Below are positions 6,725 through 31,354 of a DNA stretch of 64,000 bases, piece after piece; within the stretch, counting starts at the first letter, position 1, and each line of letters begins with the position of its first letter. This DNA comes from Candidatus Kapaibacterium sp. (GTDB lineage: Bacteria > Bacteroidota > Ignavibacteria > Kapaibacteriales > UBA2268), in assembly GCA_023957315.1 (NCBI GenBank), contig JAMLHE010000003.1:124001-188000 (forward strand), written 5' to 3'. A program made the position numbers and the translations under genes. Below the pieces are notes generated by a model, which did no database searches, was not told the origin of the DNA, and worked only from the letters and a program-made list of their open reading frames with translations.

Positions 6725-9229
6725 ATGGCTAAAACTAAAACAACCAAAGCAGAAATTGCTGATAAAATAACTGATGAATCTTCGGTTTCAACTAATGAAA
6801 ATTCTGAAACTGAGATTAATGGTGTTACAGTTCAACGTAAAAAGTCGAATACACGGCGGAAGGCTAAGAGTAGCCCAAAGACTGAAACTGTAGTTGTGGA
6901 CGTAAAGAAGGCACCGGAGCCGATTGCAGAGCAAATATTTGCTGATGAACCTAAAGTTGAATCTGATGACACAAACACAAAGCGAAATTCAAAAACAAGT
7001 TCGCCAAGACGTAAATCAACAAAATCCACACCAAATGTTGATACAAAACCGGAAAATGAAGATTCTGCACCAAAAATTGAATCACTTAATTTCGGTTCGA
7101 TAATAACTTTTGATTCCGACGAGGAGCCTAAAGATGCTGATGATGAGCCAAAAGTTCCAATCAAAAATGTCATCGAAAACATAACTACTCCCCCACAACA
7201 AACAAAACAAAATCCGAATCAGATTAAGCAAAACCCGAATCAGATTAAGCAAAACCCGAATCAACAAAAGCAAAACCCGAATCAGATTAAGCAAAACCCG
7301 AATCAACAAAAGCAAAACCCGAATCAGATTAAGCAAAACCCGAATCAACAAAAGCAAAACCCGAATCAACAAAAGCAAAACCCGAATCAGATTAAGCAAA
7401 ACCCGAATCAACAAAAGCAAAACCCGAATCAACAAAAGCAAAACCCGAATCAACAAAAGCAAAACCCGAATCAACAAAAGCAAAACCCGAATCAGATTAA
7501 GCAAAACCCGAATCAACAAAAGCAAAACCCGAATCAGCAAATACAAGTTGAGCAGGATGAGCCAAATCTAAATCAACAAGCAAGCGTTGTACAGCAAAAG
7601 CAGAGTCCGAATCAACAGAAGCAGAATCCGAATCAACAGAAGCAGAACACGAAACAACAAGATAAAGTTGAAAAGCCTAAACTAAAGCCACAGGCTAAAA
7701 ATTCAAAAGCTAAGAAAGAATCCGATAATCAAGAATTGCAATCAAAACAAGCACCTAAGCCTATCGCTCGTGAAGTTCTTACCTACTCATTGCCTGATGT
7801 GAAGCAGTTAGCACCTCGATTGTTAAAAAATCCGGTAATCAGAAAATTTTTAGCTGCAATAGAAGATTTTCTGAAAACAAGAATTTATATCGAAAAGGGC
7901 TTCAGAATAGTCCTTGCCGTTAGTGGTGGAGTAGATTCGGTAGTCATGTTGGATTGTATGGCTTTAGTAGCCGATAAATTAGGTTTGCAAATATATATTG
8001 CTCATTTCAATCATATGCTTCGCGAGAAGGAATCCGATTTAGATGCAGAATTAGTCAAGAATTTGGCGGAACAATACAATATTCAATTTTTGAATAGTTC
8101 CGGCAATGTGAAAGCGTTTTCACAAAAAAATAATATTAGCATCGAACATGCAGCTCGAAATTTGCGCTACAACTTTTTTGAACGTACAACTCGAAATTTA
8201 GATGCTGATTTGATGGCTACAGCACATACATCCGATGATTCAGTCGAGACATTTATACTTAATTTGTTACGTGGTTCCGGTTTGACGGGTTTGAGTGGAA
8301 TTCCTGAAGTTAGAAAATTTGTAAAAAATGTTCTTATAATCCGCCCCTTACTATCTTTCACTAAAAAAGAGATTAAAAATTATGCAGAACTTCGTAAGCT
8401 GAAATGGCGCGAGGACGAATCCAATCAGTTGTTGAATTACACTCGTAATAAGGTGCGATTAGATTTGATGCCGAAACTCAGAGCTGATTACAATCCGGCG
8501 GTAGATGAAATCATAAGTCGCACTGCAAGGTTAATCTATGGCGCAGATAATTTGATTAGAGAATTGGTCAAAAAGCACATGGTTCCGGTAGTTGTGGATG
8601 TCACTCCTGAGAGATTCAGTCTCAAAGTACCAATTTTGCAAACTCATGAAGAATTCATGCAAGGTGAAATCATTCAAGCTGCATGGCTGAAATATTTCAG
8701 ATTGCAACCTTTGTCTCTTTCTGCGGTGGATAGAATCATGTCAATTTTCGACAAACAAAGTGGCACTCAGGTAGAAATTGGCTCAGGATATTTTGCCTTA
8801 AAAGACAGAAACATTGTAATTATATCCAAATCATCCGTCATTAAGAAAGTAAAAGTATTTGGCTCTTTGCCGAGCGAATATCGTGTAAATGGTTACAAAA
8901 TCGTTTTCACATTGGTTGATAAACGTGCAGTGAAAATTATCGAGAACCCCGAAATTGAATACTTTGATTATGATAAAGTCGGGACTTACGTGGAAATACG
9001 AAATTGGGAACAAGGTGACACTTTCCAACCTCTGGGAGCACCCGGCGAGATGAAAATAAGCGATTTCTTGACAAATGAGAAGGTTTCTTTGCTCGAAAAG
9101 CCTAACATCATCATCGTCAGAAATACATATGAAACTGTTTGGGTTGTTGGGAAGCGAATCGGAGAGAAATTTAAAATTGACAGTGAAACTAAAACTTTCT
9201 TAAAAGCTGAAATTGTTCAGCTAAAGTAG
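6725..9229 (+). CDS. tilS: tRNA(Ile)-lysidine synthase TilS with a long repeat-containing N-terminal extension
   Basis: ATP-dependent enzyme that modifies C34 of the tRNA(Ile) CAU anticodon to lysidine. Of 834 residues, only about 345-834 are the TilS core: PP-loop SGGVDS at residues 400-405, TAHTSDDSVETFILNLLRG-type helix, and the C-terminal domain with EIRNWEQGDTFQPLG. The first 340 residues are Lys/Gln/Asn/Pro/Ser-rich and look disordered. They include 16 near-perfect copies of a KQNPNQ(I/Q) heptad plus a decayed block further on. Usual TilS proteins are about 320-470 residues and lack this. The frame stays open through the repeat and into the enzyme with no stop, so I call one fused protein, although an internal start before the core cannot be excluded. 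Confidence 0.9.
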   Translation: MAKTKTTKAEIADKITDESSVSTNENSETEINGVTVQRKKSNTRRKAKSSPKTETVVVDVKKAPEPIAEQIFADEPKVESDDTNTKRNSKTSSPRRKSTKSTPNVDTKPENEDSAPKIESLNFGSIITFDSDEEPKDADDEPKVPIKNVIENITTPPQQTKQNPNQIKQNPNQIKQNPNQQKQNPNQIKQNPNQQKQNPNQIKQNPNQQKQNPNQQKQNPNQIKQNPNQQKQNPNQQKQNPNQQKQNPNQQKQNPNQIKQNPNQQKQNPNQQIQVEQDEPNLNQQASVVQQKQSPNQQKQNPNQQKQNTKQQDKVEKPKLKPQAKNSKAKKESDNQELQSKQAPKPIAREVLTYSLPDVKQLAPRLLKNPVIRKFLAAIEDFLKTRIYIEKGFRIVLAVSGGVDSVVMLDCMALVADKLGLQIYIAHFNHMLREKESDLDAELVKNLAEQYNIQFLNSSGNVKAFSQKNNISIEHAARNLRYNFFERTTRNLDADLMATAHTSDDSVETFILNLLRGSGLTGLSGIPEVRKFVKNVLIIRPLLSFTKKEIKNYAELRKLKWREDESNQLLNYTRNKVRLDLMPKLRADYNPAVDEIISRTARLIYGADNLIRELVKKHMVPVVVDVTPERFSLKVPILQTHEEFMQGEIIQAAWLKYFRLQPLSLSAVDRIMSIFDKQSGTQVEIGSGYFALKDRNIVIISKSSVIKKVKVFGSLPSEYRVNGYKIVFTLVDKRAVKIIENPEIEYFDYDKVGTYVEIRNWEQGDTFQPLGAPGEMKISDFLTNEKVSLLEKPNIIIVRNTYETVWVVGKRIGEKFKIDSETKTFLKAEIVQLK
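7202..7537 (+). repeat. 21-bp in-frame tandem repeat, 16 copies, in tilS
   Basis: Sixteen consecutive 21-base units each encoding X-K-Q-N-P-N-Q, where X is Thr (first), Ile or Gln. Two DNA unit types alternate irregularly, one with cagatt and one with caacaa at the variable join; otherwise the units are almost identical down to third codon positions (aacccgaat). Only the first differs (aatccg). Such synonymous identity points to recent slippage or unequal exchange. A second, decayed block with different codon use follows at about 7594-7659. Confidence 0.95.
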
Positions 9230-10683: not shown

Positions 10684-12891
10684 GTGAAATTGACATTTAA
10701 GAGCAAACTCATGATTCTGACTGTCTCGGCAGCATTATCGCCCGTTATTTTGATTTTAATTTTTACAGCACGCTTGCAATTTGAACTGACATCAAGAACG
10801 AAAACCGAACTCGATTCATTATCGAGGGTAAATATCAGTCAAATTTCAAAAGATGCTTATGGAATTATTGAGACGGCGAATGAACTTTTCGTGCAAAAAA
10901 ACAAGGTCGCTTTGAATGTCCTTCGGCAAACGATTAAAAGCGAAGGAGGATTCAATTTCGCTAACCCACTTGTAAAATGGAACGCACTAAATCAATTCAC
11001 CGGAGAAATCACTGAAGTGTCCCTTCCTTCGGTTAACATAGGCTCTAAATGGCTTGGTCAAAACATCTCATTTGACGAGAATACTCATGTGGTAGATATC
11101 GTCACCGAACAGGTTTTGGGAACTGTAACTCTCTTTCAGCGAATTAATGAAAGAGGCGATATGATTCGCGTAGCTACATCTGTCCGAACTCACGATGGCA
11201 AACGCGCCATTGGCACGTTCATTCCGGCTGTCAATCCTGACGGACAAGCAAATCCCGTAATTTCCAAAGTTATGAACGGAGAAGTTTACAATGGTGTTGC
11301 TTTTGTTGTCAACGATTGGTATGTCACAGCATACGAGCCATATTACATAAACGGGCGAATCGAAGGTATGATTTATGTAGGTGAGCGCATTGCCTCAATC
11401 GAATCTATCCGAAAAACAATCATGGATATTAAAGTGGGCAAAACCGGATATGTATTCGTACTCGGGGCGCTCAATCCGCATTACGGAAGATACATAATAT
11501 CCAAAAACGGTGAACGGGATGGCGAAACCATTATAGAGATTACGGACGCAAGTGGAGATAAATTTGTAAAAGACATGGTTGAGAATGCAATGAAACTGAA
11601 TCCGAATGAACTTTTCATTCAAGAGTATGAGTGGCAGGATTTGGGAAGCGATTCGTCGCGTTCGAAGCTTTCGGCTGTATCATATTTTAAACCTTGGGGA
11701 TGGGTTATTGGAGCAGGAGCATTCGAGGATGATTATCACGATTCGCAAAATAGAATCGAAGCTACGATTTCTGATTTGCAAAACATCTATTTGGTGCTGA
11801 TTATTGTGACTTTGCTCATCATATTGATTCTGACAATGTTCTTTGCTAAACGCATGACTCGCCCATTGGGATATATGACTACTTTAGCTTCAAATATAGC
11901 AACAGGCGACATCCACGATGCAAAAATCAATCTGGAAAAACTCAAAAGCACTGCAAAATTTGCTTCCGATAAAAGTAGCAATCTGAAAGATGACATTTAT
12001 AAACTGTACAAATCTTTTGAATCCATGATAAACAATCTTGACTCATTAATCGGTCAAGTACAGCGTTCTGGAATTCAAGTTACCACATCGGCAACTCAAA
12101 TCGCTGCATCGGCTCGGGAACTCGAAGCAACAGTCGCCGAACAAGCTGCATCCACGAAAGAAGTCTCGGCAACAAGCAAGGAAATCACTCAAACTTCATA
12201 TTTATTGGCAAACAAAATCATCAAAGTCAGTACAAATGCAAATGTTACCGCAGATTTGGCTGAAGACGGCAAATCAAGTTTGACAAACATGGAGCAGGCA
12301 ATGAATGATTTGGCAAAAGCTACTAATTCAATCACTTCGAAGCTATCAATAATCAATGATAAAGCAAATAAGATTTCGACAGTTGTTACCACGATTAACA
12401 AAATTTCCGAGCAAACGAATTTACTGTCTTTAAATGCTTCGATTGAAGCCGAAAAAGCAGGTGAATACGGCAAGGGCTTTTCGGTTGTTGCACGAGAAAT
12501 AAGCCGGTTGGCAGACCAAACGGCAGTGTCAACAAAGGATATCGAATACATGGTAAGCGAAATGCAAAGCTCGGTCTCGTCAGGTGTAATGGAAATGGAC
12601 AAATTCGGGCAGGAAGTCAAACGCGGAACAAGTAGCATCGGTGAAATCGGTGAGCAAATGACTTCTATAATCGAAAAAGTGAAGGAATTGATTCCCGAAT
12701 TTGAAAATGTTAGTACCGGAACACAAAATCAATCTAAGAGCGCCGAGCAAATTAGCGAAGCAATGTCCCAATTAAGTATGACAGCTACACAAACTAAGGA
12801 TTCTTTGACAGAATTCAAACGAGCGACAGAAAATTTGAACGATGCAGTAAAAGGCTTGCAAAGTGAAGTATCAAAATTTAAAATAAGTTGA
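10684..12891 (+). CDS. methyl-accepting chemoreceptor with Cache_3-Cache_2-type sensor
   Basis: Transmembrane receptor of the chemosensory cluster, about 735 residues. I start it at the GTG at 10684, which has GGAG eight bases upstream and puts the first membrane helix at residues 8-28; an upstream GTG at 10636 adds 16 residues without a ribosome site. The large periplasmic sensor (about 30-365) has the paired-Cache look, with [11 protein letters not shown] and [19 protein letters not shown]. Second helix near 371-392. The signalling hairpin tip is at about 573-612 ([19 protein letters not shown]...RLADQT). It ends in KFKIS and lacks a CheR-docking pentapeptide. First gene of the Wsp-like cluster, 16 bases before the second receptor. 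Confidence 0.92.
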
Positions 12892-12907
12892 TAAGGATAA
12901 AAGTGGT

Positions 12908-15022
12908 ATGTTTAAAAATCTGAAAATCTGGGTCAAATTGCTCATTAGCACTCTTGTCTTTATATTGCCGATAGCATCGCTCATGTTCTTTGTCTTTTCA
13001 GCTTACGATACTAACATCGAAAAAGTCAAAATGGAAATTTCCGGAAACATTTTATTAGAACCTGTTGTCGAGACCTTAAGTCAACTTAGTGAGCATAGTA
13101 TTCTGACAATGGCAATAAATGATGACTCCTATCTTGAAATATCAAAAGATCTTAACAAACGCCGAGATTCCCTTTCAAACAAAATTGACCAAAATCTGAA
13201 CAAATTGGACTATTTAATCCACGAACAGGCTAATTACAATAAACTTGCTTATAAATTGCTCAATGACGATTTGCACCGCACATATACGCCGAAATCAATA
13301 CATTCTGAATGGCGAAATCTAAGCGAAATTAGTAAGAGTGCACATTTCAATGAAACATCAAAGCTTTACAACACAATATTTGCCCTGATTAATCAACTAA
13401 CACGATTCGTAGGCGATGAATCGGGTTTGATACTCGACCCTGACCTCGATTCTTATTATTTGATGGATATAACTCTTCTTTCATTGCCCAAATTTAAGAC
13501 AGGATTTTCAAATTACGTGGTATCAGCCTCAGAATTCCTGACTGACCCCGATACAGAACATTCAGGCTATTTGCGATATTTGGCTAATTCATTAACTATT
13601 GATACTGAACACATGCTTTCCGCTTTGAACACTTCAATCCAAAATGATAGCAAATATTACGGTACTAACCCGAATTTGTCGAATGTTTTACGACCTAATT
13701 ACTTAGAATTCAGCAGTAATTTTGAAATTTTGCTCAAACATACCGAGCAATACACTGACCAATCTGTGAGCCTTGTAAACAAAGATGATTTCATGGATTT
13801 GGTACTCAAAGTCACCGAATCAAGTTGGGTCTTTTGGAATTCGACAAATGTGGAATTGAACACACTGCTCAAGCAACGTTTAGACTATTTTGTAGAGCGG
13901 AGATTAGTGGCATTTGCAGTTACGGGTTTAGCATTAACAATAGCAATCGTGTTGGTTGTGATGATTTCCCTTCAAATTGCTTTCCATATCAAAGTAGTTA
14001 CTGAAATAACGGAACTCATTGCCAAAGGTGACATTTCTGCCGCTGTGTATGAAATTAATGACCCGAAACGAATCGGAATGTTCAAGAAGTATTTAGAAGA
14101 TAAAGCTGATATCCGTGATGAAATTTTAAAATTATTTCGTGCAATTCGCCAAATGACAATCAATTTGGGCTCATTACTCACGCAAGTTAAAAGTTCAGCT
14201 GATTTAGTGTCTGAATCAACAGGCAACATTACGTCGTCAGCAAAGGAAATTGAAACGATTGTAGCCGAGCAAGCCGCATTGACTAATCAAGTGAGTTCAT
14301 TGAGCAACGAAATTGCCGATGCTTCTGAAAATTTGACAGTTCAAACCGATTATTTGAACAAAATGGCGAAGCAAACTTCTGAATTTGCTGAAGAAGGATT
14401 CGAAAATTTGAACCAATTGAAAACAAATATGTCATCGCTGACCGAATCTTCAACTGATATTTCGGAAAAACTTGAGACAATCAAATCCAGAGCTACAAAC
14501 ATCAGTTCGGTAATCACAACGATTACAAAAGTGGCAAATCAGACAAATTTGGTATCTCTAAATGCCTCGATTGAAGCCGAGCGAGCAGGCGCTTTCGGAA
14601 CCGGGTTTGCCGTTGTAGCACGTGAAATTCGCCGTCTCGCAGACCAAACTGCAATAGCTGCACTCGAAATTGAAGATATGATTACAGAAATGCAAATTGC
14701 CGTCAAAGAAGGTTCCGATTCGATTATCAAATATACTGAACAAACTAAAAGCGGCACTGATAAAGCTACCGAATTGATATCTACATTAGGTGAATTGATT
14801 TCGAGTGCCAATAAATTGCCCGAAGTTATAGCAAATGTGTATGATTCGACTACAAAACAATCACGAAATTCAAAGGAAATCAACTCATCAATGAAAGAAT
14901 TGAACAATGCAGCAAAATTTACGCGAGATTCCATAATGGAATTTAACAACGCAACCGGACAACTGAATCACGCTGTAGTTGGCTTGAACAAAGAATTGAA
15001 AAAATTTACGATTAAAGGGTAA
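12908..15022 (+). CDS. methyl-accepting chemoreceptor with helical-bundle-like sensor
   Basis: Second receptor, 704 residues, start preceded by AAGGAT. Membrane helices lie near residues 12-30 and 333-358. The roughly 300-residue periplasmic part is helical, with no Cache signature, and probably a four-helix or longer bundle as in WspA-like receptors. A short HAMP-like region leads into the coiled coil, whose tip is [17 protein letters not shown]...IRRLADQTA at about 541-580. It ends in KFTIKG with no pentapeptide. The tip sequence matches the first receptor closely, so both probably join the same array. It ends 5 bases before cheW. Confidence 0.92.
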
Positions 15023-15027
15023 TTCTT

Positions 15028-15459
15028 ATGATGATATTGCCTTTCACAATTGATGATTCGAGGTATTGCATCAATATAGACAATGTAGTCGAAGTTATCC
15101 CTTTTGTCAAAATAACCCCTATTCCCAAGTCTTCCGAGCATCTTAAAGGGTTGATTAACTTCAGAGGCTCGCTAATTCCTGTATTCGATTTGGCATATTA
15201 TCTCAAACAGCATTACACAAATATCTACTTGAGCACTCGAATTATCGTCGTAAGAGACACGGAAATCCCTGAAATCGAATTCGGAATAATTTCGGAGGAA
15301 GTTTCGGAAACATTTAGTCTTGATTCTAATTATCAAGAGGAAAAAATCAATAGCTACACTGCTCATCCATTTATTGATGAGGTGTTTTTGATAGATTTTG
15401 AAATGGTGCATTTAGTCAATTTGAAAAAGTTAATTACCACAATTGAAAATTATTTATAA
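15028..15459 (+). CDS. cheW: CheW coupling protein (WspB position)
   Basis: Adaptor linking receptors to the CheA kinase. The 143-residue product is a single CheW domain: FTIDDSRYCINIDNVVEVIP at the start, then the conserved HLKGLINFRGSLIPVFDL strand pair at about residues 43-60. It is slightly short and the C-terminal half is diverged, as is usual for the WspB-type adaptor. It starts 5 bases after the second receptor and precedes cheR, which is the Wsp order. Confidence 0.88.
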   Translation: MMILPFTIDDSRYCINIDNVVEVIPFVKITPIPKSSEHLKGLINFRGSLIPVFDLAYYLKQHYTNIYLSTRIIVVRDTEIPEIEFGIISEEVSETFSLDSNYQEEKINSYTAHPFIDEVFLIDFEMVHLVNLKKLITTIENYL

Positions 15460-15489
15460 TTTTATTTCATTTCAAACGATTTTACAATT

Positions 15490-16731
15490 ATGACTGATTT
15501 CGGCGAAATAATCAAATATATAGAAAGTGAGATGGGCATTGATACCGACTCAATTGGTATCATTTCTGTAGCAAGTGCCATCAACAAACACGTCAGTCAA
15601 GCAGAATTAGACAATCAAAAGTTTGCTCATCTGATGTCGGATAGCAACAGAGTTCAAGATTTAATCAACGACCTAACAGTAGCAGAGACTTGGTTTTTCC
15701 GAGATTCAGAATGTTTCAAATTTCTCAAGCAAGAATTATCTAATCAAAGATTCAAATACACATCATCCAATAAATTGCGAATACTTTCCGCCCCGAGTTC
15801 GACCGGCGAAGAACCCTATTCGATTGCAATGCTATTGATAGACCTTGGCTTCAAAACTACGGAATTTGACATTGTAGCTGTGGACATCAATCCTGTATCG
15901 CTGAATAAAGCAAGAAACGGAATTTATGGCAGAACATCATTCCGGAGCGATTTCGCAAATTTCAAACAAAGGTACTTTGAACCAACGAATGATAATAATT
16001 TTACAATTGATAGTAGAATCAAATCAATTCCTGACTTCAGACAAGCAAATATTGTAAAAAGCAATTTCTTAGCAAACGAAGCAAAATTTGATTATATATT
16101 TTGTAAAAATTTGTTGATATATTTGAATGTCGAAGCTCGTAATGCAGTTTTGCAAAACATCAATAGGTTGCTCCGCAGCGAAGGTGTTTTGTTTGCAGGT
16201 TTGTCTGAAACTGCTTATTTCACGCGTAATCACTTCGAGCATGTCCAACATGACATGGCTTTCGCTTGTAAACAAATCGTTCATTCAAATACTTCCGAGC
16301 CGACTTTATTTACAAAATCCAACATCAAAACTACTGAAAAAGCGACGCCTAAAACAACTAAAATGATTCCGAAAATTTCTGAAAAACAACATCATCAGAG
16401 TCAGGGTGAAAATAAAGACGAGCTTTACGAACAACTCAAAATTTTAGCAAATCAAGGTTCATACATTGATGCCGAGCAAATTTGCAATGAACTGCTAATT
16501 AGCGACAATGGAGACTATCGGGCTTTATATGTGATGGGATTAATTAGCAATGCTTCAGGCAAAATCAGCGAAGCAAAAGATTATTTTCATAAAGTGCTAT
16601 ATTTGCATCCTGACCATTACGAGTCCTTAGTTCATACGAGCTTGATTTACGAAAGCAGTGGCGAACACGAACTAGCAAATATTTATAGAGAGCGGGCTGA
16701 ACGCGTATTTATAAAACAAAGTAATTCTTAG
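15490..16731 (+). CDS. cheR: CheR-type receptor methyltransferase with C-terminal TPR (WspC-like)
   Basis: SAM-dependent methyltransferase that methylates glutamates on the receptors. In 413 residues it has the CheR N-terminal helical part, the SAM-binding LRILSAPSSTGEEPYSIAML motif around residues 95-120, and FDYIFCKNLLIYL near 205. A low-complexity Lys/Thr linker at about 275-305 joins a C-terminal TPR section (about 310-410; ALYVMGLISNASGKISEAKDYF). CheR fused to TPRs is the WspC architecture and suits receptors that lack a tethering pentapeptide, as here. Starts 30 bases after cheW and ends 2 bases before the next gene. Confidence 0.92.
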   Translation: MTDFGEIIKYIESEMGIDTDSIGIISVASAINKHVSQAELDNQKFAHLMSDSNRVQDLINDLTVAETWFFRDSECFKFLKQELSNQRFKYTSSNKLRILSAPSSTGEEPYSIAMLLIDLGFKTTEFDIVAVDINPVSLNKARNGIYGRTSFRSDFANFKQRYFEPTNDNNFTIDSRIKSIPDFRQANIVKSNFLANEAKFDYIFCKNLLIYLNVEARNAVLQNINRLLRSEGVLFAGLSETAYFTRNHFEHVQHDMAFACKQIVHSNTSEPTLFTKSNIKTTEKATPKTTKMIPKISEKQHHQSQGENKDELYEQLKILANQGSYIDAEQICNELLISDNGDYRALYVMGLISNASGKISEAKDYFHKVLYLHPDHYESLVHTSLIYESSGEHELANIYRERAERVFIKQSNS

Positions 16732-16733
16732 TG

Positions 16734-17420
16734 ATGGCAAATTTAGAAAAAATAATTTCGGACAAGGGACCAAAATGCTGGAACAGAATCGGTATTTACG
16801 GAGATAATTCGTGTGATTTGCTAGCAAATTATGACCATTGCAAAAACTGCCTCGTTTATACAGAGGGTGGTAGAAAGCTGTTTAAGCGTGAAATACCAGA
16901 AGAATTGATTGACGAATGGACAGAACAAATCAGCTCGCCTAAGGAAATCGAGTCTGAATCGAAGGAATCATTGATAGTGTTCAGAATTGCAGATGAATGG
17001 CTCGCCGTAAAAACAGTTTGTTTCAAAGAGGCAGTGGATTCTAAATTTGTTCATTACGTTCCGGGAAGAACGAACGATTACCTTTTGGGATTGACTAACG
17101 TAAACGGTGAACTACTCTTGTGCATCTCATTATCTGCGTTTTTGAGTCTGAATCGAGTTAAACCTTTAGAAAACGGTGATTCCAAAAAATATAAATTGCT
17201 TTTGGTCTTAGAAACTTCCGGAGATAGCTTTGTGATTCCGGTTGACGAACATTACGGGGTATTCAAATCCGATACACAGCACTACACAAAGGCACCCGCA
17301 ACAATCACAAAATCGGAAACAACTTTGACATCAAATACATTTGAAATTGAGGATAAAACCGTCAGTATTATTGATACAAACAGATTGTATGATATGATTA
17401 ATTCAAAATTGAAATGGTGA
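16734..17420 (+). CDS. cheW: CheW-like protein with N-terminal Cys motif (WspD-like)
   Basis: Second adaptor, 228 residues, ATG 2 bases after the cheR stop. The C-terminal 150 residues are a CheW domain (FRIADEWLAVKTVCFKEAVDS, then YLLGLTNVNGELLLCISLSAFL). The first 40 residues carry CWNRIGIYGDNSC and HCKNC, that is Cys15, Cys27, His35, Cys36 and Cys39. From family knowledge this CW-x-RIG-x2-GD-x-SC...HC-x-NC pattern marks WspD-type CheW proteins; its role (metal or redox) is not established as far as I know. Its place between CheR-TPR and CheA-REC is also that of wspD. Confidence 0.88.
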   Translation: MANLEKIISDKGPKCWNRIGIYGDNSCDLLANYDHCKNCLVYTEGGRKLFKREIPEELIDEWTEQISSPKEIESESKESLIVFRIADEWLAVKTVCFKEAVDSKFVHYVPGRTNDYLLGLTNVNGELLLCISLSAFLSLNRVKPLENGDSKKYKLLLVLETSGDSFVIPVDEHYGVFKSDTQHYTKAPATITKSETTLTSNTFEIEDKTVSIIDTNRLYDMINSKLKW

Positions 17421-17426
17421 TGACAA

Positions 17427-19772
17427 ATGTCAAATGAAATAGACATGGAAATGCTGGATTTGTTCCGGCTTGAGTTGGAATCCCATACCAAAACTTTGGA
17501 AATTGGATTAATCAATCTCGAAAAGAACAGTTCGCCGCAAAACGTAGAACCACTGATGCGCGCAGCACACTCAATCAAAGGTGCAGCACGAATTGTCGGT
17601 TTGGATAAAGCTGTTGATTTGGCGCATTCGATGGAGGACATCCTCGATGCAGTGATGAAAAAGAAGCGTGTGATTGATTCCGCCGATATTGAAGTCCTTT
17701 TGGAATGCAATGATTTTTATACATCACTTCTAAATTATGAAATTGCCGAAATTCCTAATGTTTTGAATAATTCAACGAACAAAATCAAAAGCCTGATTGA
17801 TAGTTTAAATGCCTTGCCTGTAAAAGAATTTGGTAGCGAAAAGCCCAAAACAAACGGTTCTCATAAAGCGCACGATAGCATCGCACCTACAAACGGCTCA
17901 AATAAAATTGAACCAAAAGAAGCAATTGAAATAGTCGAAAATAAAAGCATCGAAGTTGTTCAAACACAGAGCGAGGAAATTGAAGCTGCCGCCGCGAAGG
18001 ATGAACAGATTGACGCAAATGCCAAAAAGACTGACGATAGATTCGTGCGGGTTTTGTCTGATAGGTTGAACAAAATACTTGGTCTGACAGGCGAAATATT
18101 GGTCCAAACAAAATTGCTCCGCCCATTCGGAAATGAGCTTCAAATATTGAAAAACGGAATTATTGAGTTGAATACGCTGAAGGAATCAATTTATCAAGAA
18201 CTTCAACCATATAATATTTCCGAAGAGATTAACGAAAATTTCCGTGACGCTTCAAAACGAATGGATATGTTGTTGAGTGAATTGCGTGATTATATTGATG
18301 ATTTCGACCAATTTTCTCGCCGATTGGAAATTCTCACAGACAGGCTTTATAATGAAGCGATAGACACTCGAATGAAGCCTTTTTCCGAAGGACTTGCAGG
18401 ATTTCCGAGACTTGTGCGGGATATTTCCAAAAAGCTTGGTAAAAAAGTAGAATTTAAAATTCGAGGCGAAAGCACCAGAGTTGACCGCGATATTCTCGAG
18501 AAACTCGAAGCTCCGCTCAATCACCTAATCCGAAATGCTATAGACCATGGTATTGAAATGCCGGATGAAAGAGCATCAAAATCTAAAAATGAAACGGGGA
18601 CAATTACGCTGGAAGCAAGGCATTTGTCGGGTATGTTGATGGTCTTTATCGAAGACGATGGCAAAGGCATGGACCCCGAGTATATCCGCAAAAAAATTGT
18701 TGACAAAGGATTTACAACAGCTGAAATGGCTCAGTTCATGACAAAATCCGAATTATTCGACTTCTTGTTTTTGCCCGGATTTTCAACTGCTACTGAAGTT
18801 ACCGAAATTTCAGGACGCGGTGTCGGGCTCGATGTTGTGTTTTCGATGGTTCATGAAGTTGGCGGCATGATTCGCGTTGATTCGGAGCCAAACAAAGGAA
18901 CCATTTTCCAACTCCAATTGCCTTTGACATTGTCGGTTTTGAGGTCATTATTGGTGGAAATTTCAGGTGAACCTTATGCTATCCCGCTTTCAAGAATCGA
19001 ACGAATAGTGCATCTTTCAACATCTGAACTGAAAAAAGCGGAAAATCATTATTATTGCGAACTTGAAGGTGAAAACATCGGGATTGTTGATGCTTCGCAA
19101 ATTTTCGGAATACAAAGAGTCAAAACCGAAAGAATTAAATATCCAATTGTTGTTGTAAGCGATAGATTGAGCAAATTCGGGATGTCTGTGGATAGATTCA
19201 TAAGCCAGACAGATTTAGTGGTTATTCCAATCAACAAAAAGTTAGGGCGAATCCAAAACATCAGTTCAGGAGCAATCTTAGAGGACGGAACTCCTGTTTT
19301 GATTACGGATGTTGATGATTTGGTCAGGTCTATAGATGTAATTATCAAATCCGGGAAATTGGAAAAAGCCGACATCAATCCCCAAAAAGGCGACAAGAAA
19401 CTAAAGCATATTCTCGTGGTAGATGATTCGATAACAGTTCGTGAAGTTGAGCGCAAACTTCTCGAGAACAAAGGCTTTAAAGTTACTGTTGCCGTTGATG
19501 GCATTGATGGTTGGAATACTTTGCATCGCGATAACTACGACTTGGTGATTTCGGACATTGATATGCCGCGGATGAATGGAATCGAAATGGTCAAAAGAAT
19601 CAAAAACGATATTAAATATCGCGATTTGCCAATTATGATTGTATCATACAAAGACCGAGAAGATGATAAAAAAGCCGGGCTTTCTGCGGGAGCTTCATAT
19701 TATTTGACCAAAAGCAGTTTTCATGATAACACTTTACTTAATGCCGTTTACGATTTGATAGGGACACCTTAA
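17427..19772 (+). CDS. cheA: hybrid CheA kinase with C-terminal receiver (WspE-like)
   Basis: Histidine kinase of the array, 781 residues. Domains in order: Hpt with phospho-His48 (AAHSIKGAAR), a variable acidic linker at about 135-205, dimerisation helices, the ATPase domain (NHLIRNAIDHGIE, DDGKGM, GRGVGLDVV), a CheW-like domain, and a receiver at about 655-781 with acceptor Asp710 in SDIDMPRMNG. CheA fused to a receiver is the WspE form. All catalytic motifs look intact. It starts 6 bases after the WspD-like gene. Likely phosphorylates its own receiver, used as a sink or modulator, and the REC-PP2C output protein. Confidence 0.94.
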   Translation: MSNEIDMEMLDLFRLELESHTKTLEIGLINLEKNSSPQNVEPLMRAAHSIKGAARIVGLDKAVDLAHSMEDILDAVMKKKRVIDSADIEVLLECNDFYTSLLNYEIAEIPNVLNNSTNKIKSLIDSLNALPVKEFGSEKPKTNGSHKAHDSIAPTNGSNKIEPKEAIEIVENKSIEVVQTQSEEIEAAAAKDEQIDANAKKTDDRFVRVLSDRLNKILGLTGEILVQTKLLRPFGNELQILKNGIIELNTLKESIYQELQPYNISEEINENFRDASKRMDMLLSELRDYIDDFDQFSRRLEILTDRLYNEAIDTRMKPFSEGLAGFPRLVRDISKKLGKKVEFKIRGESTRVDRDILEKLEAPLNHLIRNAIDHGIEMPDERASKSKNETGTITLEARHLSGMLMVFIEDDGKGMDPEYIRKKIVDKGFTTAEMAQFMTKSELFDFLFLPGFSTATEVTEISGRGVGLDVVFSMVHEVGGMIRVDSEPNKGTIFQLQLPLTLSVLRSLLVEISGEPYAIPLSRIERIVHLSTSELKKAENHYYCELEGENIGIVDASQIFGIQRVKTERIKYPIVVVSDRLSKFGMSVDRFISQTDLVVIPINKKLGRIQNISSGAILEDGTPVLITDVDDLVRSIDVIIKSGKLEKADINPQKGDKKLKHILVVDDSITVREVERKLLENKGFKVTVAVDGIDGWNTLHRDNYDLVISDIDMPRMNGIEMVKRIKNDIKYRDLPIMIVSYKDREDDKKAGLSAGASYYLTKSSFHDNTLLNAVYDLIGTP

Positions 19773-19775
19773 GAA

Positions 19776-20777
19776 ATGAGAATAGCCATTGTCAATGACT
19801 TATTGATTGAAATTGAAATACTCCGAAAAGTTATAAAATCCATAGACGCTACTGAAATTGTTTGGACTGCCACCAATGGAGCCGAAGCAATTGAAAAACT
19901 CAATGCCGACAAACCGGATTTGATTTTGATGAATCTCATGATGCCGGTAATGGATGGTGCGACTGCAACTAAAATCATTATGGAAAGCAATCCATGTTCG
20001 ATTATGATTGTGACTACCTCGCTGAATACTAATCGCACTAAAGTTTTCGATGCGATGGGTTACGGTGCTTTAGATGTTGTTGCAACTCCTGTATTGGATG
20101 AAGCAGGTAATCTGATTGGTGGAGATAATTTAGTAAAAAAAATCAAAACAATCAGGAAATTAATCAGCTATACTTCGCAATTTGAGAAAAAGCAAAGTGC
20201 AAGCTATTCCGGTAATAAAGTAAATATGGTTGCTATCGGCTCATCAACAGGCGGTCCGAAAGCTCTGACAGGGATTTTGTCCAATTTACCGGCAAATTTA
20301 AACGCAGCAATCGTTATCGTTCAACATGTGGATAGCAAATTTGCTGACGGATTAGCCGAATGGTTGAATAAATATTCAGAATTGCCTGTCGAAATCGCCG
20401 TTGCTAAAACAAAGCCAATCAATGGGCGCGTTTACATAGCAGGAACAAACGACCATTTGATTATTGACCCGTTGGGATATTTCGAATACACACCCGAGCC
20501 GATAAATTACCATTACAGACCCTCAGTTGACCGCTTTTTCGAATCCATCAATGATAATTGGGTTGGAACAGGAATTGCTGTGGTATTGACCGGAATGGGC
20601 AATGATGGTGCCAAGGGATTGCTAAAATTGAAAAAAGCCGGTTGGCTGACAATCGCTCAAGATGAGTCAAGTTCGGTCGTTTATGGTATGCCGAAAGTCG
20701 CTGCTGAATTAGATGCTGCAATGGAAATTTTAAATCCGGCTGAAATCGCCGACAAAATAAAGAGAACTATTATATAA
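19776..20777 (+). CDS. cheB: CheB-type receptor methylesterase (WspF-like) lacking the phospho-acceptor Asp
   Basis: Removes methyl groups from receptor glutamates and resets sensitivity. The 333-residue protein has a receiver domain (1-120) that begins MRIAIVND as WspF does, then the esterase domain with Ser157 (GSSTGG), His184 (VQHVD) and Asp277 (GMGNDG), so the catalytic triad is complete. The receiver is unusual: the expected LMDLxMPVMDG reads LMNLMMPVMDG, placing Asn53 (codon AAT at 19932-19934) where the phosphate-accepting Asp should be. The esterase may therefore not be controlled by phosphorylation. Starts 3 bases after cheA. Confidence 0.93.
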   Translation: MRIAIVNDLLIEIEILRKVIKSIDATEIVWTATNGAEAIEKLNADKPDLILMNLMMPVMDGATATKIIMESNPCSIMIVTTSLNTNRTKVFDAMGYGALDVVATPVLDEAGNLIGGDNLVKKIKTIRKLISYTSQFEKKQSASYSGNKVNMVAIGSSTGGPKALTGILSNLPANLNAAIVIVQHVDSKFADGLAEWLNKYSELPVEIAVAKTKPINGRVYIAGTNDHLIIDPLGYFEYTPEPINYHYRPSVDRFFESINDNWVGTGIAVVLTGMGNDGAKGLLKLKKAGWLTIAQDESSSVVYGMPKVAAELDAAMEILNPAEIADKIKRTII

Positions 20778-20789
20778 TAAGGATAAATT

Positions 20790-21983
20790 ATGCAAAATGA
20801 GAACCCGTTAAAAATCACACCTAAGGAATATAAAATCAAGGTGCTTTTGGTTGACGACCAATTGATAGTCGGAGAGCAAGTTCGCCGAATGCTATCACAA
20901 TTCGATGATATCGAATACCATTTTTGTCAAGACCCTGCAAAAGCACTGCCAACAGCAAAGGAAATCAAACCAACTTTGATATTGCAAGATTTGATAATGC
21001 CTGATATTGATGGGCTGACTTTGGTTAAATTTTATCGCGCTTCCCAAGAATTAAAAGATGTGCCGATTATAGTTTTATCATCTAAAGAAGAAGCCACGAC
21101 AAAGGCTGAGATGTTTGAAGCCGGTGCAAACGATTACATTGTAAAGTTGCCTGATAAAATCGAATTGTTAGCCCGTATTCGCTACCATTCCAAAGCATAT
21201 ATAAATTTATTGCAAAGAAATGAAGCGTACGAATCCTTAGAGAAAAGCCAAAAAGCCTTAGCTTCAGAATTGAATAAAGCGGGCGAATATGTGATTTCTA
21301 TGCTTCCTGAAGCAATCAGTAAAGACGGTATTTCGACATTTTGGAGATTTATCCCTTCTGCTCAATTAGGTGGAGATTCATTCGGATACCATTGGTTAGA
21401 TGACAATCACTTTGCAATCTATCTGCTTGATGTTTGCGGTCATGGGGTAGGTCCAGCATTATTATCAGTTTCGGCTATGAATTTCTTAAAAAGCAATGCC
21501 TTGTCAACGCTCAATTTTCATGACCCTGCAGTAGTAGCAATAGCTTTAAATAAAGCTTTCCAGATGTCAGACCATAACGGACTCTATTTCACAATTTGGT
21601 ATGGAGTTTATAATAAATCGGAAAGAACTATTGATTACATCAGTGCCGGGCACCCTCCTGCCCTATTAATTGATAGACAAGGCAATATGAGCAAACTTAT
21701 GAATGATAATTTTATAATTGGAGGTTTGCCTGATTTCCCGTTTAAAGCAACAAAAGTCAATGTTCCCGAAGGTTCACTTCTTTATGTCTATTCCGATGGT
21801 GTTTACGAAATCGAACTTCATGACGGCTCTATTTGGGAACTTGACGAAATGGCAGATTTTATAAATGAAACCAAAAACGATAATGCCGATGAAATAGACG
21901 GATTGCTCAACAAAGTAAAGATTCTTGGGAGCAAGGAAATTTTAGACGATGACTTTTCGATGTTGAAAATAAAATTTGATTAA
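20790..21983 (+). CDS. response regulator with WspR-like receiver and PP2C/SpoIIE phosphatase output
   Basis: Likely output of the chemosensory cluster, 397 residues, preceded by AAGGAT. The receiver (about 15-140) has acceptor Asp67 in LILQDLIMPDIDG and the DYIVKLPDKIELLARIRYHS helix, which I recognise as very close to the WspR receiver. After a short coiled coil (about 140-170) comes a SpoIIE/RsbU-type PP2C phosphatase: GGDSFGYHW, DVCGHGVGPALLS, YISAGHPPALLI and YSDGVYE, which carry the metal-binding acidic residues. No GGDEF motif exists. Such phosphatases usually dephosphorylate anti-sigma antagonists; none is encoded in the window, so the target is unknown. Confidence 0.93.
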   Translation: MQNENPLKITPKEYKIKVLLVDDQLIVGEQVRRMLSQFDDIEYHFCQDPAKALPTAKEIKPTLILQDLIMPDIDGLTLVKFYRASQELKDVPIIVLSSKEEATTKAEMFEAGANDYIVKLPDKIELLARIRYHSKAYINLLQRNEAYESLEKSQKALASELNKAGEYVISMLPEAISKDGISTFWRFIPSAQLGGDSFGYHWLDDNHFAIYLLDVCGHGVGPALLSVSAMNFLKSNALSTLNFHDPAVVAIALNKAFQMSDHNGLYFTIWYGVYNKSERTIDYISAGHPPALLIDRQGNMSKLMNDNFIIGGLPDFPFKATKVNVPEGSLLYVYSDGVYEIELHDGSIWELDEMADFINETKNDNADEIDGLLNKVKILGSKEILDDDFSMLKIKFD

Positions 21984-26491: not shown

Positions 26492-27271
26492 ATGCTAAAA
26501 GAATTATTTACGGCTTCATTAGGGATGATGAATAGCCAGACAAGGTTAGAAGTAAGTGCCAACAACTTGGCAAATGCTTCTACGACCGGTTTCAAAAGAG
26601 CCGAAGTCTTCGAGCGAAACTTGATAGACGCTCGGGCTAATCTTTACAACGTCAAAGGCGACGTCGAACAAAACGACCCTCCAATCGGTTCATACTACGA
26701 TTTCTCAAACGGTGCAATGGAGCAAACAAGCAATCCATTGGATATTGCGATTGAAGGAAAGGGATTTTTCGTGGTTCAAGATGTCGAAGGCAAAGAATTT
26801 CTGACAAGAGCCGGAAGTTTTACTCTTTCGGAAACCGGAGAAATCATCACAAACGACGGCAAAAAACTGATGGGCGAAAACGGCGTGATTGCTATCAACA
26901 AAGAATTCATGTCCAACCCACAGATTTCCACCGATTCGAGAAGTGCTAATTTGAGGATTTCCGAAACGGGCGAAGTCTTTTTCAACGAATATGAAGTAGG
27001 GAAAATTTTGCTGATGCTCCCCGACGACACAAACACATTACAGCGAATTTCAAATCAAGATTTCATAGCTACTTGGGAATCTGACGGAATGAAACTCGAA
27101 GATGGCGAATTTGTAATCCGCCAAGGATGGCTCGAAAGTTCAAATGTCAATATTGTTCAAGAAATGGTGAAGATGATTGAATTGCAACGTGCTTTCGAAG
27201 CCGGAAGCAAAGTGATTCAAACAAACGACAGCACTCTTGAAAAATCTATTGCTATGAGCAGATTTTATTAA
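26492..27271 (+). CDS. flgF: flagellar basal-body rod protein FlgF
   Basis: Proximal rod subunit, exported through the flagellar type III system to the periplasm. The 259-residue protein opens with the rod/hook motif SANNLANASTTGFKR (residues 23-37), continues with NPLDIAIEGKGFFVV and TRAGSFTLSETGEI, and ends with ESSNVNIVQEMVKMIELQRAFEAGSKVIQT, the conserved coiled coil that packs the axial filament. GGAG five bases upstream supports this ATG. First gene of the flagellar operon; flgG follows 29 bases later. Confidence 0.93.
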   Translation: MLKELFTASLGMMNSQTRLEVSANNLANASTTGFKRAEVFERNLIDARANLYNVKGDVEQNDPPIGSYYDFSNGAMEQTSNPLDIAIEGKGFFVVQDVEGKEFLTRAGSFTLSETGEIITNDGKKLMGENGVIAINKEFMSNPQISTDSRSANLRISETGEVFFNEYEVGKILLMLPDDTNTLQRISNQDFIATWESDGMKLEDGEFVIRQGWLESSNVNIVQEMVKMIELQRAFEAGSKVIQTNDSTLEKSIAMSRFY

Positions 27272-27300
27272 AATTTGAAAATAATATAAAAGGATAAATA

Positions 27301-28089
27301 ATGGATAAAACGTTAAGAACAGCAGCTACGGGCTTGACAGCCCAGCAGAGATATGTAGAAATCATCTCGAACAACTTATCGAATGTCAACACAACGGGTT
27401 ACAAGAAAGTTAGACCCGAATTCCAAGATTTGTTGTACGAAACACTCAGACCAGCCGGTAATGTAGCTCGTTCAGGAGTTGAACCTCTGAATGAAGTCCA
27501 AATTGGCTCGGGTACCGAACTCGTTGCAACGAAAAAGATTTTCAGACAAGGAGATATTTCACAGACTAATAATCCACTCGATTTGGCTATTAGCGGTGAG
27601 GGATTTTTCATAATTCGCAAGCCCGACAGCACCTATAGCTTTACACGCGACGGTTCGTTTCAGCTAAATCGTAACGGCGAAATCACAACAAGTCAAGGTT
27701 ATCTTTTAGAGCCGGGTTTTTCGATTCCGAATGACGCACTCGAAATAATGATTTCACGTGATGGTGTTGTGAGTATGCTGCTTGAGGGCGCTACTGATGA
27801 ACAAGTTTTGGGACAATTAGAGCTTGCACGATTTATTAATCCGGGTGGTTTGCGTTCGATGGGTAATAATCTTTACGCTGAAACTCCTGCCTCAGGTGCT
27901 GCTATTTTTGAGCAACCTGCTTCCATTAATACAGGTGAAATTATTCAATCTCATCTTGAAGCATCGAATGTGGACATAGTTGAAGAAATGGTAAATATGA
28001 TAAATGCTCAAAGAGCATATGAATTGAATTCGAAATCAGTGCGCACTGCCGATGAAATTCTTGCAACTGCAGTTAATTTGAAGAGATAA
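27301..28089 (+). CDS. flgG: flagellar distal rod protein FlgG
   Basis: Distal rod subunit that connects the rod to the hook, and the best-conserved axial protein. 262 residues, exactly the usual length. Start MDKTLRTAATGLTAQQRYVEIISNNLSNVNTTGYKK (residues 1-36 cited by ends), the GSGTELVATKKIFRQGDISQTNNPLDLAISGEGFF-type block, and the C-terminal EASNVDIVEEMVNMINAQRAYELNSKSV are all canonical. AAAGGAT precedes the ATG. flgA begins one base after its stop. Confidence 0.97.
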   Translation: MDKTLRTAATGLTAQQRYVEIISNNLSNVNTTGYKKVRPEFQDLLYETLRPAGNVARSGVEPLNEVQIGSGTELVATKKIFRQGDISQTNNPLDLAISGEGFFIIRKPDSTYSFTRDGSFQLNRNGEITTSQGYLLEPGFSIPNDALEIMISRDGVVSMLLEGATDEQVLGQLELARFINPGGLRSMGNNLYAETPASGAAIFEQPASINTGEIIQSHLEASNVDIVEEMVNMINAQRAYELNSKSVRTADEILATAVNLKR

Positions 28090-28090
28090 A

Positions 28091-28792
28091 ATGAGTAGAA
28101 TTATATATATAATATTATTAATTATCGCAACGAATATAAATACATATTCGCAATCAAGCTTTTCGGCTGAACGATTGAAAGAGGCAATTATTAATCATAT
28201 TATGACATCAAATACAGCAATTGCCGAAGTTGATATCCTTCAAAATATCAGCGATATTTCTTTCCCCGAAACCGGAATTCATGCAGAATTAAATGCTGAT
28301 ATTCAAGATTGCGGATTGAATCGCGTTATGATAAAATTCAGAAATGATGATAGAATAGTAAAATTTTTGGATTATTCCGTTCGGATTAAATATGAAATAA
28401 ATGCTTTAGTAGCCGATAAAACAATTCCGGTGGGGCAAACATTTTCAGAATCTGATTTTACATATAAAACAATAATTTCCGATAATAATTGTTCCGTAAA
28501 TATTACAGATATTAAGCAATTAATTGGCAAACAAGCTTCGAGAAATATCTCAAAAGGTACTATAATTAATAATACATTATTGGCAGCAGAAACTATTATT
28601 AAACGAAGTGAAAAAGTTAATATAATTGTTAATTCGGGTGCAGTTAGAATTAGAACTATGGGGACAGCATTACAAGACGGAATTGTGGGACAACAAATAC
28701 GAATAAAAAGAGACAGTGGCGGCACATTAACAGGGATTGTAGGCGATGACGGAAATGTTTATTTAGATGCCAACAGTTTATCAAAAAGGTGA
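28091..28792 (+). CDS. flgA: flagellar P-ring assembly chaperone FlgA
   Basis: Periplasmic chaperone needed to assemble FlgI into the P ring. The 233-residue protein has a signal peptide (IIYIILLIIATNINTYSQ), a diverged N-terminal domain, then the SAF/ChapFlgA domain: DKTIPVGQTFSESDFTYK, LIGKQASRNISKGTIIN, and the closing segment with VNIIVNSGAVRIRTMGTALQDGIVGQQIRIK. Its stop is close to the flgH start, so translation is probably coupled. Base composition is more AT-rich than flgF and flgG, mostly through Ile/Asn codons. Confidence 0.9.
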   Translation: MSRIIYIILLIIATNINTYSQSSFSAERLKEAIINHIMTSNTAIAEVDILQNISDISFPETGIHAELNADIQDCGLNRVMIKFRNDDRIVKFLDYSVRIKYEINALVADKTIPVGQTFSESDFTYKTIISDNNCSVNITDIKQLIGKQASRNISKGTIINNTLLAAETIIKRSEKVNIIVNSGAVRIRTMGTALQDGIVGQQIRIKRDSGGTLTGIVGDDGNVYLDANSLSKR

Positions 28793-28797
28793 TTAAA

Positions 28798-29370
28798 ATG
28801 AAAAAGATTTTATATTTTGTAATTATTTTATTAGCGTTCAATGTGAATGCTTATAGTCAATTTATTCAAAACAGTTCTCGCTCATTATTTTCGGATGTGA
28901 AAGCATTCCGTGAAGGTGACGCGATTATGGTGCTGATTATCGAAGATACTCAGGCGGATAACTCAGCGAAAACACAAAACGACCGCTCCACGAGCGTAAA
29001 TGCCAATTTAGGATATAACACAGGCTCGGGAAATAATACCATGGGTGGTTCATTTGGCACCGGCACAGGTCATCAAGGACGTGGGCAAACTTCGCGAAAT
29101 GAAAAAATCAGGTCACGTTTGAGCGCTAAAGTGGTTGAAGTAGTCGAAAACGGTAATTTACGAATAGAAGGAACTCGCACCACAAAAGTAAACGGCGAGA
29201 CGCAAACTGTTGTAATTAAAGGAATTGTTCGACCCGTAGATGTTCGTCCTGATAATTCGGTTTTTTCCTATTCAATTCTCGAACTGACTTTACTAATCGA
29301 AGGTGATGGTAGCGTTTCTGAAATTCAAGAACCCGGACTTTTAACCAAATTTTTAAGAATATTATTCTAA
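28798..29370 (+). CDS. flgH: flagellar L-ring protein FlgH without a lipobox
   Basis: Forms the outer-membrane L ring. I use the ATG at 28798 (190 residues) rather than the GTG at 28789 that overlaps flgA. The family parts are clear: AFREGDAIMVLIIEDTQADNSA, RLSAKVVEVVENGNLRIEGTR and GIVRPVDVRPDNSVFSYSI. FlgH is normally a lipoprotein, but this signal peptide (MKKILYFVIILLAFNVNAYSQ) ends in an SPI-type site and has no cysteine, so the ring subunit is probably not acylated. Confidence 0.92.
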   Translation: MKKILYFVIILLAFNVNAYSQFIQNSSRSLFSDVKAFREGDAIMVLIIEDTQADNSAKTQNDRSTSVNANLGYNTGSGNNTMGGSFGTGTGHQGRGQTSRNEKIRSRLSAKVVEVVENGNLRIEGTRTTKVNGETQTVVIKGIVRPVDVRPDNSVFSYSILELTLLIEGDGSVSEIQEPGLLTKFLRILF

Positions 29371-29376
29371 AATAAA

Positions 29377-30474
29377 ATGTTAAAAATAAATATAATAATA
29401 ATATTCTTTTTAATTGCAACGAATTTATTTGGTGCAAGAATTAAAGATATTGCAGTAATCGAAGGTGTAAGTGGTGTGCAAGTAGTCGGTTATGGCTTAG
29501 TTTCGGGATTGAACCAAAGCGGCGATAATCAACAAACTACATATACCGTGCAATCAGTTTCAAATATGCTGAAACGATTTGGATTGACAGTTCCCGAAAG
29601 AAACCCAAGAATTAGAAATGTAGCGGCTGTGATGGTGACGGCAACAATTCCCGCATTTATGAAAGCAGGCAGCAAAGTTGACGTAGTTGTGTCATCAATT
29701 GGCGATGCGAATTCATTGCAAGGTGGAGTTTTGCTGATGACTCCCCTATCTACTGCCGACGGCACGATTGTCGGGATGGCTCAAGGTTCGCTCTCAGTTG
29801 GTGGATACGATTTCAACGCTCTGGGCTCGAGATTAGGAAAAAATATCTCGACAACAGGACGCGTTCCAAACGGATTATTTCTGGAAATTAGTTTTAATCG
29901 TGAAATAATTATTGATAATAAAATAAGAATTAGTTTACGTGAGCCGGATTTCACGACTGCATCACGAATTTCGCAAGCTGTTAATTCTGTGGCAGGGCTC
30001 GCTAATTCGGCACAAATTTTTGATGCCGGAACTGTGGAAGTCACCTTACCCGCAGGAACTAACAATAATCAGGCAATGGAATTAATTGCTCAAATTGAAG
30101 TAATTAATGTAATTAGCGACCCAATTGCAAGAGTTGTAATAAATGAAAGAACAGGCACAGTCGTTGTCGGTGGAAATGTTGAATTACTCCCCGCTGTGAT
30201 TGCTCATGCAGGGCTCGAAATTTCAATACAAAAACAAGTTATAGTTCCTCAACCTGCACCATTTACGATTAGACCACCGCAAATTGCCGAAACAGCGGAA
30301 ATTACCACACGCGAAGAACTTAGAGAATCTCGCACTTTAGTCGTGCAAGGTCCTACTGTTCAAGATATTGCTAATGCTTTGAATTTATTGCAAGTTAATC
30401 CACGCGATTTAATATCAATTTTTCAAGCTCTGAAAGAATCAGGTTCCTTACAAGGAGAATTAATTATTCAATAA
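29377..30474 (+). CDS. flgI: flagellar P-ring protein FlgI
   Basis: Builds the periplasmic P ring around the rod. 365 residues, the usual length, with signal peptide (IIIIFFLIATNLFG) and the hallmark RIKDIAVIEGVSGVQVVGYGLV at the mature start. VSSIGDANSLQGGVLLMTPL and VVINERTGTVVVGGNVEL are also standard. Starts 6 bases after flgH and ends one base before flgJ. The presence of both L and P rings confirms a two-membrane cell. Confidence 0.96.
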   Translation: MLKINIIIIFFLIATNLFGARIKDIAVIEGVSGVQVVGYGLVSGLNQSGDNQQTTYTVQSVSNMLKRFGLTVPERNPRIRNVAAVMVTATIPAFMKAGSKVDVVVSSIGDANSLQGGVLLMTPLSTADGTIVGMAQGSLSVGGYDFNALGSRLGKNISTTGRVPNGLFLEISFNREIIIDNKIRISLREPDFTTASRISQAVNSVAGLANSAQIFDAGTVEVTLPAGTNNNQAMELIAQIEVINVISDPIARVVINERTGTVVVGGNVELLPAVIAHAGLEISIQKQVIVPQPAPFTIRPPQIAETAEITTREELRESRTLVVQGPTVQDIANALNLLQVNPRDLISIFQALKESGSLQGELIIQ

Positions 30475-30475
30475 T

Positions 30476-31345: not shown

Positions 31346-31354
31346 GCAACAATT

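Follow-up and report, generated by a model that had tools for sequence, protein, structure and literature searches.

The Wsp system is the textbook surface sensor of bacteria, and its output is taken to be cyclic-di-GMP. In Candidatus Kapaibacterium sp., a flagellated relative of the Ignavibacteriae, a gene set with the appearance of a Wsp array ends in a gene for a PP2C phosphatase, which raises two questions: is the machinery of this array truly Wsp-type, and what could it control through such an output? The window, that is, the whole stretch of DNA analysed here, comprises 64,000 nucleotides and comes from a genome of 3.55 Mb (28 contigs, 98% complete); statements on the entire source genome are based on family searches.

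Organization of the Operon

The open reading frames of the window and their Pfam domains place a single operon at positions 10684-21983. All eight collinear genes of the original prediction were found, on the forward strand and tightly spaced, with intervals ranging from an overlap up to 30 bp. The features are as follows.

10684-12891, + strand: methyl-accepting receptor 1, WspA-like, with a 40H-type hairpin, periplasmic Cache_3-Cache_2 and MCPsignal (Pfam, hairpin comparison)
12908-15022, + strand: methyl-accepting receptor 2, MCPsignal, hairpin class as in receptor 1 (Pfam, hairpin comparison)
15028-15459, + strand: CheW coupling protein in the WspB position (Pfam)
15490-16731, + strand: CheR methyltransferase with C-terminal TPR in the WspC position (Pfam)
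16731-17420, + strand: second CheW with an N-terminal four-Cys module (Cys 16, 28, 37 and 40), corresponding to WspD
17427-19772, + strand: CheA with a C-terminal receiver, corresponding to WspE; Hpt, HATPase, CheW and REC (Pfam, identity, tree)
19776-20777, + strand: CheB methylesterase in the WspF position; REC and CheB (Pfam)
20790-21263, + strand: output protein, residues 1-158, WspR-type receiver and linker helix (PDB match, model, identity)
21264-21983, + strand: output protein, residues 159-397, PP2C phosphatase domain of the SpoIIE/SiaA/RsbU type (Pfam, ligands, model)

The output gene as a whole spans 20790-21983 (REC and SpoIIE(PP2C) by Pfam). The gene of receptor 1 starts with a GTG at 10684, its open reading frame having a further GTG upstream at 10636, and its Cache_3-Cache_2 and MCPsignal domains account for the additional Cache-type receptor that had been proposed; in receptor 2, Pfam recognised no sensor domain. 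A scan for consensus promoters and terminators gave no clear excess over shuffled sequence.

On the 3' side of the array, the opposite strand carries nadC, nadA and crcB, followed by a peptidase gene. Positions 26492-35466 hold flgF, flgG, flgA, flgH, flgI, flgJ, flgK, flgL and a motA-like gene, most of the flg names being assigned by inspection. Elsewhere in the window, tilS has a 5' extension (7201-7659) in which a 21-bp repeat coding for N/Q-rich heptads occurs about 19 times.

Two sister species keep the array gene set, and so do seven other genomes from this family and class, of which one is fragmentary (G024) and two are without a detected CheR in the fetched stretch (G168, G271). Such recurrence in sister species and relatives argues against a chance assembly.

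Wsp-Type Machinery of the Array

Several comparisons support the assignment of this machinery to the Wsp type. The order receptor-CheW-CheR-CheW-CheA-CheB-response regulator is the one expected for Wsp and, as had been claimed, matches known wsp operons: annotated plasmid operons of Azoarcus and Mesorhizobium showed the identical order, with REC-GGDEF encoded by the last gene. Among 72,556 plasmid records, 20 matched in a search for the Cys-motif CheW, and all six regions that were opened proved to be operons of the Wsp type; the output was REC-GGDEF in five of them and a REC-kinase in the sixth, from Burkholderia. Over its full length, CheA shares 41% identity with the WspE of Azoarcus and Mesorhizobium, and Pfam confirmed the receiver at its C-terminus.

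In a combined tree, CheA and CheB joined the GGDEF-type Wsp arrays (100/100), apart from flagellar-type CheA; the outgroups were five flagellar-type or other CheA, including those of E. coli, Phaeobacter and Azospirillum as well as the second, flagellar-type CheA of the relatives G034 and G020. An origin of the set in flagellar (F-class) chemotaxis, which had been named as the outcome that would overturn the original prediction, is not what we observed: CheA lies outside the flagellar CheA, and the output is a multidomain protein and not a single-domain CheY. The combination of a CheR-TPR cluster with a multidomain response regulator agrees with the ACF class as defined in PMC3447774. The TPR_1 match in CheR is weak (20.5 bits versus a cut-off of 27.8; E 4e-4), and a second search returned TPR-family matches on the same C-terminal region, in agreement with the proposed fusion.

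The receptors end in ...KFKIS and ...KFTIKG and are free of an NWETF-type docking pentapeptide, as had been stated. Compared with E. coli Tar, their hairpins carry an insertion of about 14 residues per arm, as in WspA, and their length equals that of the WspA hairpin.

The Cys motif of the second CheW reads CWNRIGIYGDNSC...HCKNC. All 92 WspD sequences compared, from many phyla, retain the four cysteines; within the N-terminal module, C16, C28, C37 and C40 plus G21 are invariant (n = 92). No Pfam family matched this four-Cys module of the gene at 16731-17420, which looks like a metal-binding module. The separate roles of WspB and WspD have been described as unresolved (PMC9600634).

A WspR-Type Receiver Joined to PP2C

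The final gene had been read as a WspR-like receiver with a PP2C domain, and both halves were recovered. Residues 11-158 matched WspR in the PDB (3BRE, E about 1e-52 to 9.5e-52; 3I5A, 7e-51), whereas the best receiver other than WspR or RssB reached E 4e-15. With the WspR receivers of Azoarcus and Mesorhizobium the receiver shares 59-61% identity, compared with 34% for the receiver of the other REC-PP2C of the genome. In an AlphaFold model of the protein (mean pLDDT 89), residues 15-167, comprising the receiver and linker helix, could be superposed on WspR to within 1.1-1.6 A, at an identity of 55-56%. The modelled PP2C half (residues 150-397) superposed on three PP2C domains: that of SiaA with Z 25.0, the RsbU domain of Rv1364c with Z 24.8 and that of RssB with Z 24.1. 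P. aeruginosa RssB (3EQ2) is the closest full-length solved structure (Z 29.7, ~24% identity).

The PP2C metal ligands D196, D214, D336 and D387 are all present and, together with the phosphorylation residues of the receiver, are conserved in 15/15 Wsp REC-PP2Cs from several phyla; D386 is not conserved in the planctomycete and acidobacterial proteins. Both the fold and the metal-binding aspartates are those of SpoIIE/RsbU/SiaA-type PP2Cs, and at the sequence level the predicted active site is intact. These comparisons make the output protein a chimera: a WspR receiver and linker followed by PP2C instead of GGDEF.

Output Domains of Wsp Arrays across Phyla

We scanned 84,980 species genomes with a profile of the Cys-CheW, which yielded 445 loci, and fetched the best 80 of these. 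The tabulation of output domains suggested with the original prediction gave, among these best 80 of the 445 loci, four kinds of output: GGDEF, kinase, nucleotide cyclase and PP2C. Within the same 80, a GGDEF output stood beside the array in most Proteobacteria and in Pseudanabaena, and a histidine kinase output in Verrucomicrobia, Burkholderia and some cyanobacteria; REC-PP2C was found in the window's family, in further families belonging to that class and in Planctomycetota, and also in one Acidobacteria bin and one gammaproteobacterial bin.

In seven genera the operon ends with the REC-PP2C gene (partial in G024); in the planctomycete operons this gene is first or divergent, not last. In a sample of the phylum, 7 of 395 genomes had a full-length Cys-CheW, and PP2C was the output in 7/7.

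Some individual loci deserve mention. In one cyanobacterial Wsp array (L088, 14925-16127), a WspR-type receiver and a class III nucleotide cyclase form one protein. In eight Burkholderia Wsp operons (L131, L146, L149, L150, L158, L159, L161 and L076), a receiver-histidine kinase gene comes first, as checked by Pfam in L131 only, and no REC-GGDEF gene was present within the fetched stretch. The titles of L083 (Desulfobulbaceae) and L119 (Bacteroidales) do not match the relatives of their arrays, which are the window's genus and planctomycetes, respectively; these are probably mislabelled or mixed MAGs, or cases of transfer.

History of the PP2C Output

The original wording, a phosphatase "in place of" the diguanylate cyclase, holds insofar as PP2C occupies the place of GGDEF; the recent swap that it implies does not, the PP2C branch being common to several phyla. 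In a PP2C tree, the domains of Wsp arrays from all of these phyla formed a single 100/100 group, with family-specific PP2Cs (among them the SiaC-linked one and the other REC-PP2C of the genome) falling inside or beside it. Constraining the Wsp PP2Cs to one clade was not rejected (p-AU 0.20), and the branching of the group resembles that of CheA.

It is rather doubtful that Wsp arrays of different phyla gained the PP2C output several times independently. The outgroup-rooted CheA+CheB tree, whose outgroups are long-branched, would require three changes of the PP2C label, none of its bootstrap trees has the PP2C arrays as one clade, and the operon position of the gene varies (first in planctomycetes, last in the window); against this stand the single PP2C group with its CheA-like branching, the constraint test, and an unrooted Wsp-only CheA+CheB tree in which a single branch separates the PP2C arrays from the rest, albeit with weak support (38/0). 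Because the branches of the flagellar CheA outgroup are very long, they fix neither the position of the root nor the direction of output change, and flagellar CheA was dropped as the root of the Wsp tree.

It can safely be stated that PP2C is an old output with few changes, and not a local swap. More tentatively, PP2C might be the ancestral output of Wsp, in the form of a system leading from receptor to dephosphorylation (partner-switch), with the GGDEF, kinase and cyclase outputs derived. Planctomycetota, Acidobacteriota and Ignavibacteriae-like lineages would then have retained the ancestral state, and the last of these groups is nearly devoid of GGDEF proteins.

Relation of the Array to Flagella

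All three CheW domains of the source genome belong to the array operon, FliM and FliN are present, the array lies upstream of the flgF-flgL/motA genes, and HsbR is a precedent for a REC-PP2C governing flagellar genes (PMC5812489). These observations would suit an array that chiefly controls the flagellum, motility control having been taken over via gene expression (HsbR-HsbA-FlgM style) or otherwise, yet we regard this as unlikely. The sister species G002 has cleanly lost both fliLMNO (L280 versus L277) and the flgF-motA block (L285 and L044 versus the window) but keeps all eight array genes, with 91-97% protein identity and a dN/dS of 0.03-0.11, like neighbouring genes; the array genes of this flagella-less species are under purifying selection. 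FliM and FliN are also absent from two more genomes with a Wsp array and a PP2C output (hereafter Wsp-PP2C genomes), and in other genera the flg genes do not adjoin the array.

Since G002 keeps the array without flagellar genes, the flagellum cannot be the only target, and the same species weakens the idea that replacement of flagellar chemotaxis is the main job of the array. The array has a role without flagella, and extra flagellar control may exist where there are flagella.

Judged by CheW domains, this is the only chemosensory array in the window's genus, while other Wsp-PP2C genomes have 5-10 CheW domains and hence further chemosensory genes. An 878-residue open frame on C8, apparently a second CheB, gave weak CheR/CheB matches; no CheW lies near it, as all three genomic CheW domains are in the window.

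GGDEF Proteins and Cyclic-di-GMP

A second outcome that would have spoken against the prediction was a GGDEF-bearing WspR gene just outside the array, but the surroundings of the array contained no REC-GGDEF gene, either in the source genome or in close relatives. By Pfam, PP2C takes the place of a GGDEF diguanylate cyclase domain in the output protein, and the only GGDEF-like domain detected in the source genome by family search is missing the motif. Ten of 11 Wsp-PP2C genomes have one clear GGDEF-like domain each, without the GG(D/E)EF motif; G015 has an intact GGDEF motif. The motif-less protein (L023, G000 contig 7; L266-L274) occurs once in nearly all Wsp-PP2C genomes, and this state may be a trait of the lineage rather than a result of the PP2C output.

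It is highly improbable that REC-PP2C is an accidental neighbour and that the array really acts through a GGDEF protein encoded elsewhere or through a stand-alone CheY. Output receivers may be encoded apart from their arrays, and in G034 and G020 the array is preceded, at a distance of a few kb, by a GGDEF-like gene. However, this upstream protein shows neither a receiver nor a GGDEF motif, the receiver of the output protein is WspR-type, and its gene recurs at the operon end across genera and, in other phyla, within the Wsp operon or next to it.

Proposed Mechanism and Candidate Substrates

We consider it likely that the locus encodes a Wsp-type array whose WspR receiver and linker, fused to PP2C, feed a STAS-fold partner-switch. 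For the stimulus, phosphotransfer, mode of activation and substrate, we infer the following chain. The receptors would detect an envelope or surface cue, with CheW, the WspD-like CheW and CheA-REC (WspE) building the array. WspE would phosphorylate Asp67 in the output receiver, upon which the linker helix would alter the oligomer and switch PP2C on. The phosphatase would then dephosphorylate a Ser/Thr-phosphorylated STAS-fold partner, either an RsbV-type anti-sigma antagonist or a SiaC-like protein, and the partner-switch would lead to changed gene expression or surface behaviour. Receptor methylation would be set by CheR-TPR and CheB.

By analogy, a STAS-fold phosphoprotein is the most likely substrate. 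RsbU acts on RsbV, and SpoIIE acts on SpoIIAA. SiaA dephosphorylates SiaC, which resembles an anti-sigma antagonist, at T68 (PMC7647112), and HsbR acts on HsbA (PMC5812489). STAS proteins were present in 11/11 genomes tested; candidates in the source genome are ten STAS-domain matches, two RsbW/STAS pairs and a SiaB-like/SiaC/PP2C locus. In two class members, an RsbW-STAS module lies ~2-6 kb downstream of REC-PP2C on the same strand, where the order of genes is otherwise conserved.

In the source genome, neither a STAS nor a SiaC gene was found within or beside the operon, nor was one noticed beside REC-PP2C in the loci examined from other phyla, as seen from gene lists without a domain scan. 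An operon-linked STAS target was discarded, only the two class members having an RsbW-STAS module at some 2-6 kb, and so was SiaC as a universal target, which is absent from 5/11 Wsp-PP2C genomes.

The source genome has 17 PP2C matches. About eight SpoIIE/PP2C domains stand in tandem within 17 kb on G000 contig 18 (48206-65677). A further cluster (L059, 8498-12424; G000 contig 22) encodes a TPR-PP2C, a SiaB-like DUF6272 protein, SiaC and a second PP2C; this is a Sia-like threonine phosphorylation module, with no intact GGDEF partner detected in the genome.

CheB (19776-20777) departs from WspF in one respect. Phosphorylation of WspF serves to reset WspA in Pseudomonas (PMC5812489), whereas here the phospho-acceptor Asp of the CheB receiver is replaced by Asn53 (LILMNLMMP), which does not fit a WspF-type enzyme regulated by receiver phosphorylation. 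Asn or Ser occupies this site in the four readable genera of the window's family; among the best 80 of the 445 loci, 70 keep the Asp. Because the acceptor is missing, adaptation through demethylation is probably not kinase-driven in this family.

Comparison with Known Systems and Significance

The locus shares with the Pseudomonas Wsp system (WspA-B-C-D-E-F-R) the collinear genes, CheR-TPR, Cys-motif CheW, CheA-REC and CheB, as well as an output receiver and linker 55-61% identical to WspR. It differs in having PP2C and not GGDEF, an additional Cache receptor and a CheB that has lost its acceptor, and in the lack of a detected intact GGDEF protein in the genome. CheR-TPR clusters with GGDEF, kinase or phosphatase response regulators were tabulated in 2012 (PMC3447774), so output diversity is not new in principle; relative to those ACF-class clusters, which share CheR-TPR and the multidomain response regulator, the present array is specifically Wsp-type, and its PP2C branch has been followed through several phyla and to a receiver of the WspR type. 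The presence of Wsp genes in planctomycetes has been noted before (PMC6461901). In a literature search that was not exhaustive, we found no paper tying a Wsp array and a WspR-type receiver to PP2C, or tracing this branch.

The REC-PP2C architecture is also that of P. aeruginosa RssB and HsbR, but HsbR takes its input from the phosphotransfer protein HptB rather than from an array of receptors, and carries an additional kinase domain (PMC5812489). Likeness to the SiaA-SiaB-SiaC-SiaD pathway lies in the PP2C fold, which fits SiaA, and in the SiaB-like/SiaC/PP2C locus of the source genome (PP2C 45% identical); in contrast, SiaC is missing in several array genomes, and SiaA is not known to act as a response regulator fed by an array.

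One array and receiver driving PP2C where GGDEF proteins are nearly absent would mean that the sensing machine is separable from its messenger, and suggests that partner-switch regulation can be coupled to the sensing of a surface or of the envelope. The natural receiver-output chimeras with GGDEF, PP2C, histidine kinase and nucleotide cyclase may help to explain how the WspR receiver and linker activate their partners, and the flagella-less sister species, together with a CheB without its acceptor, makes the role and adaptation of the array directly testable.
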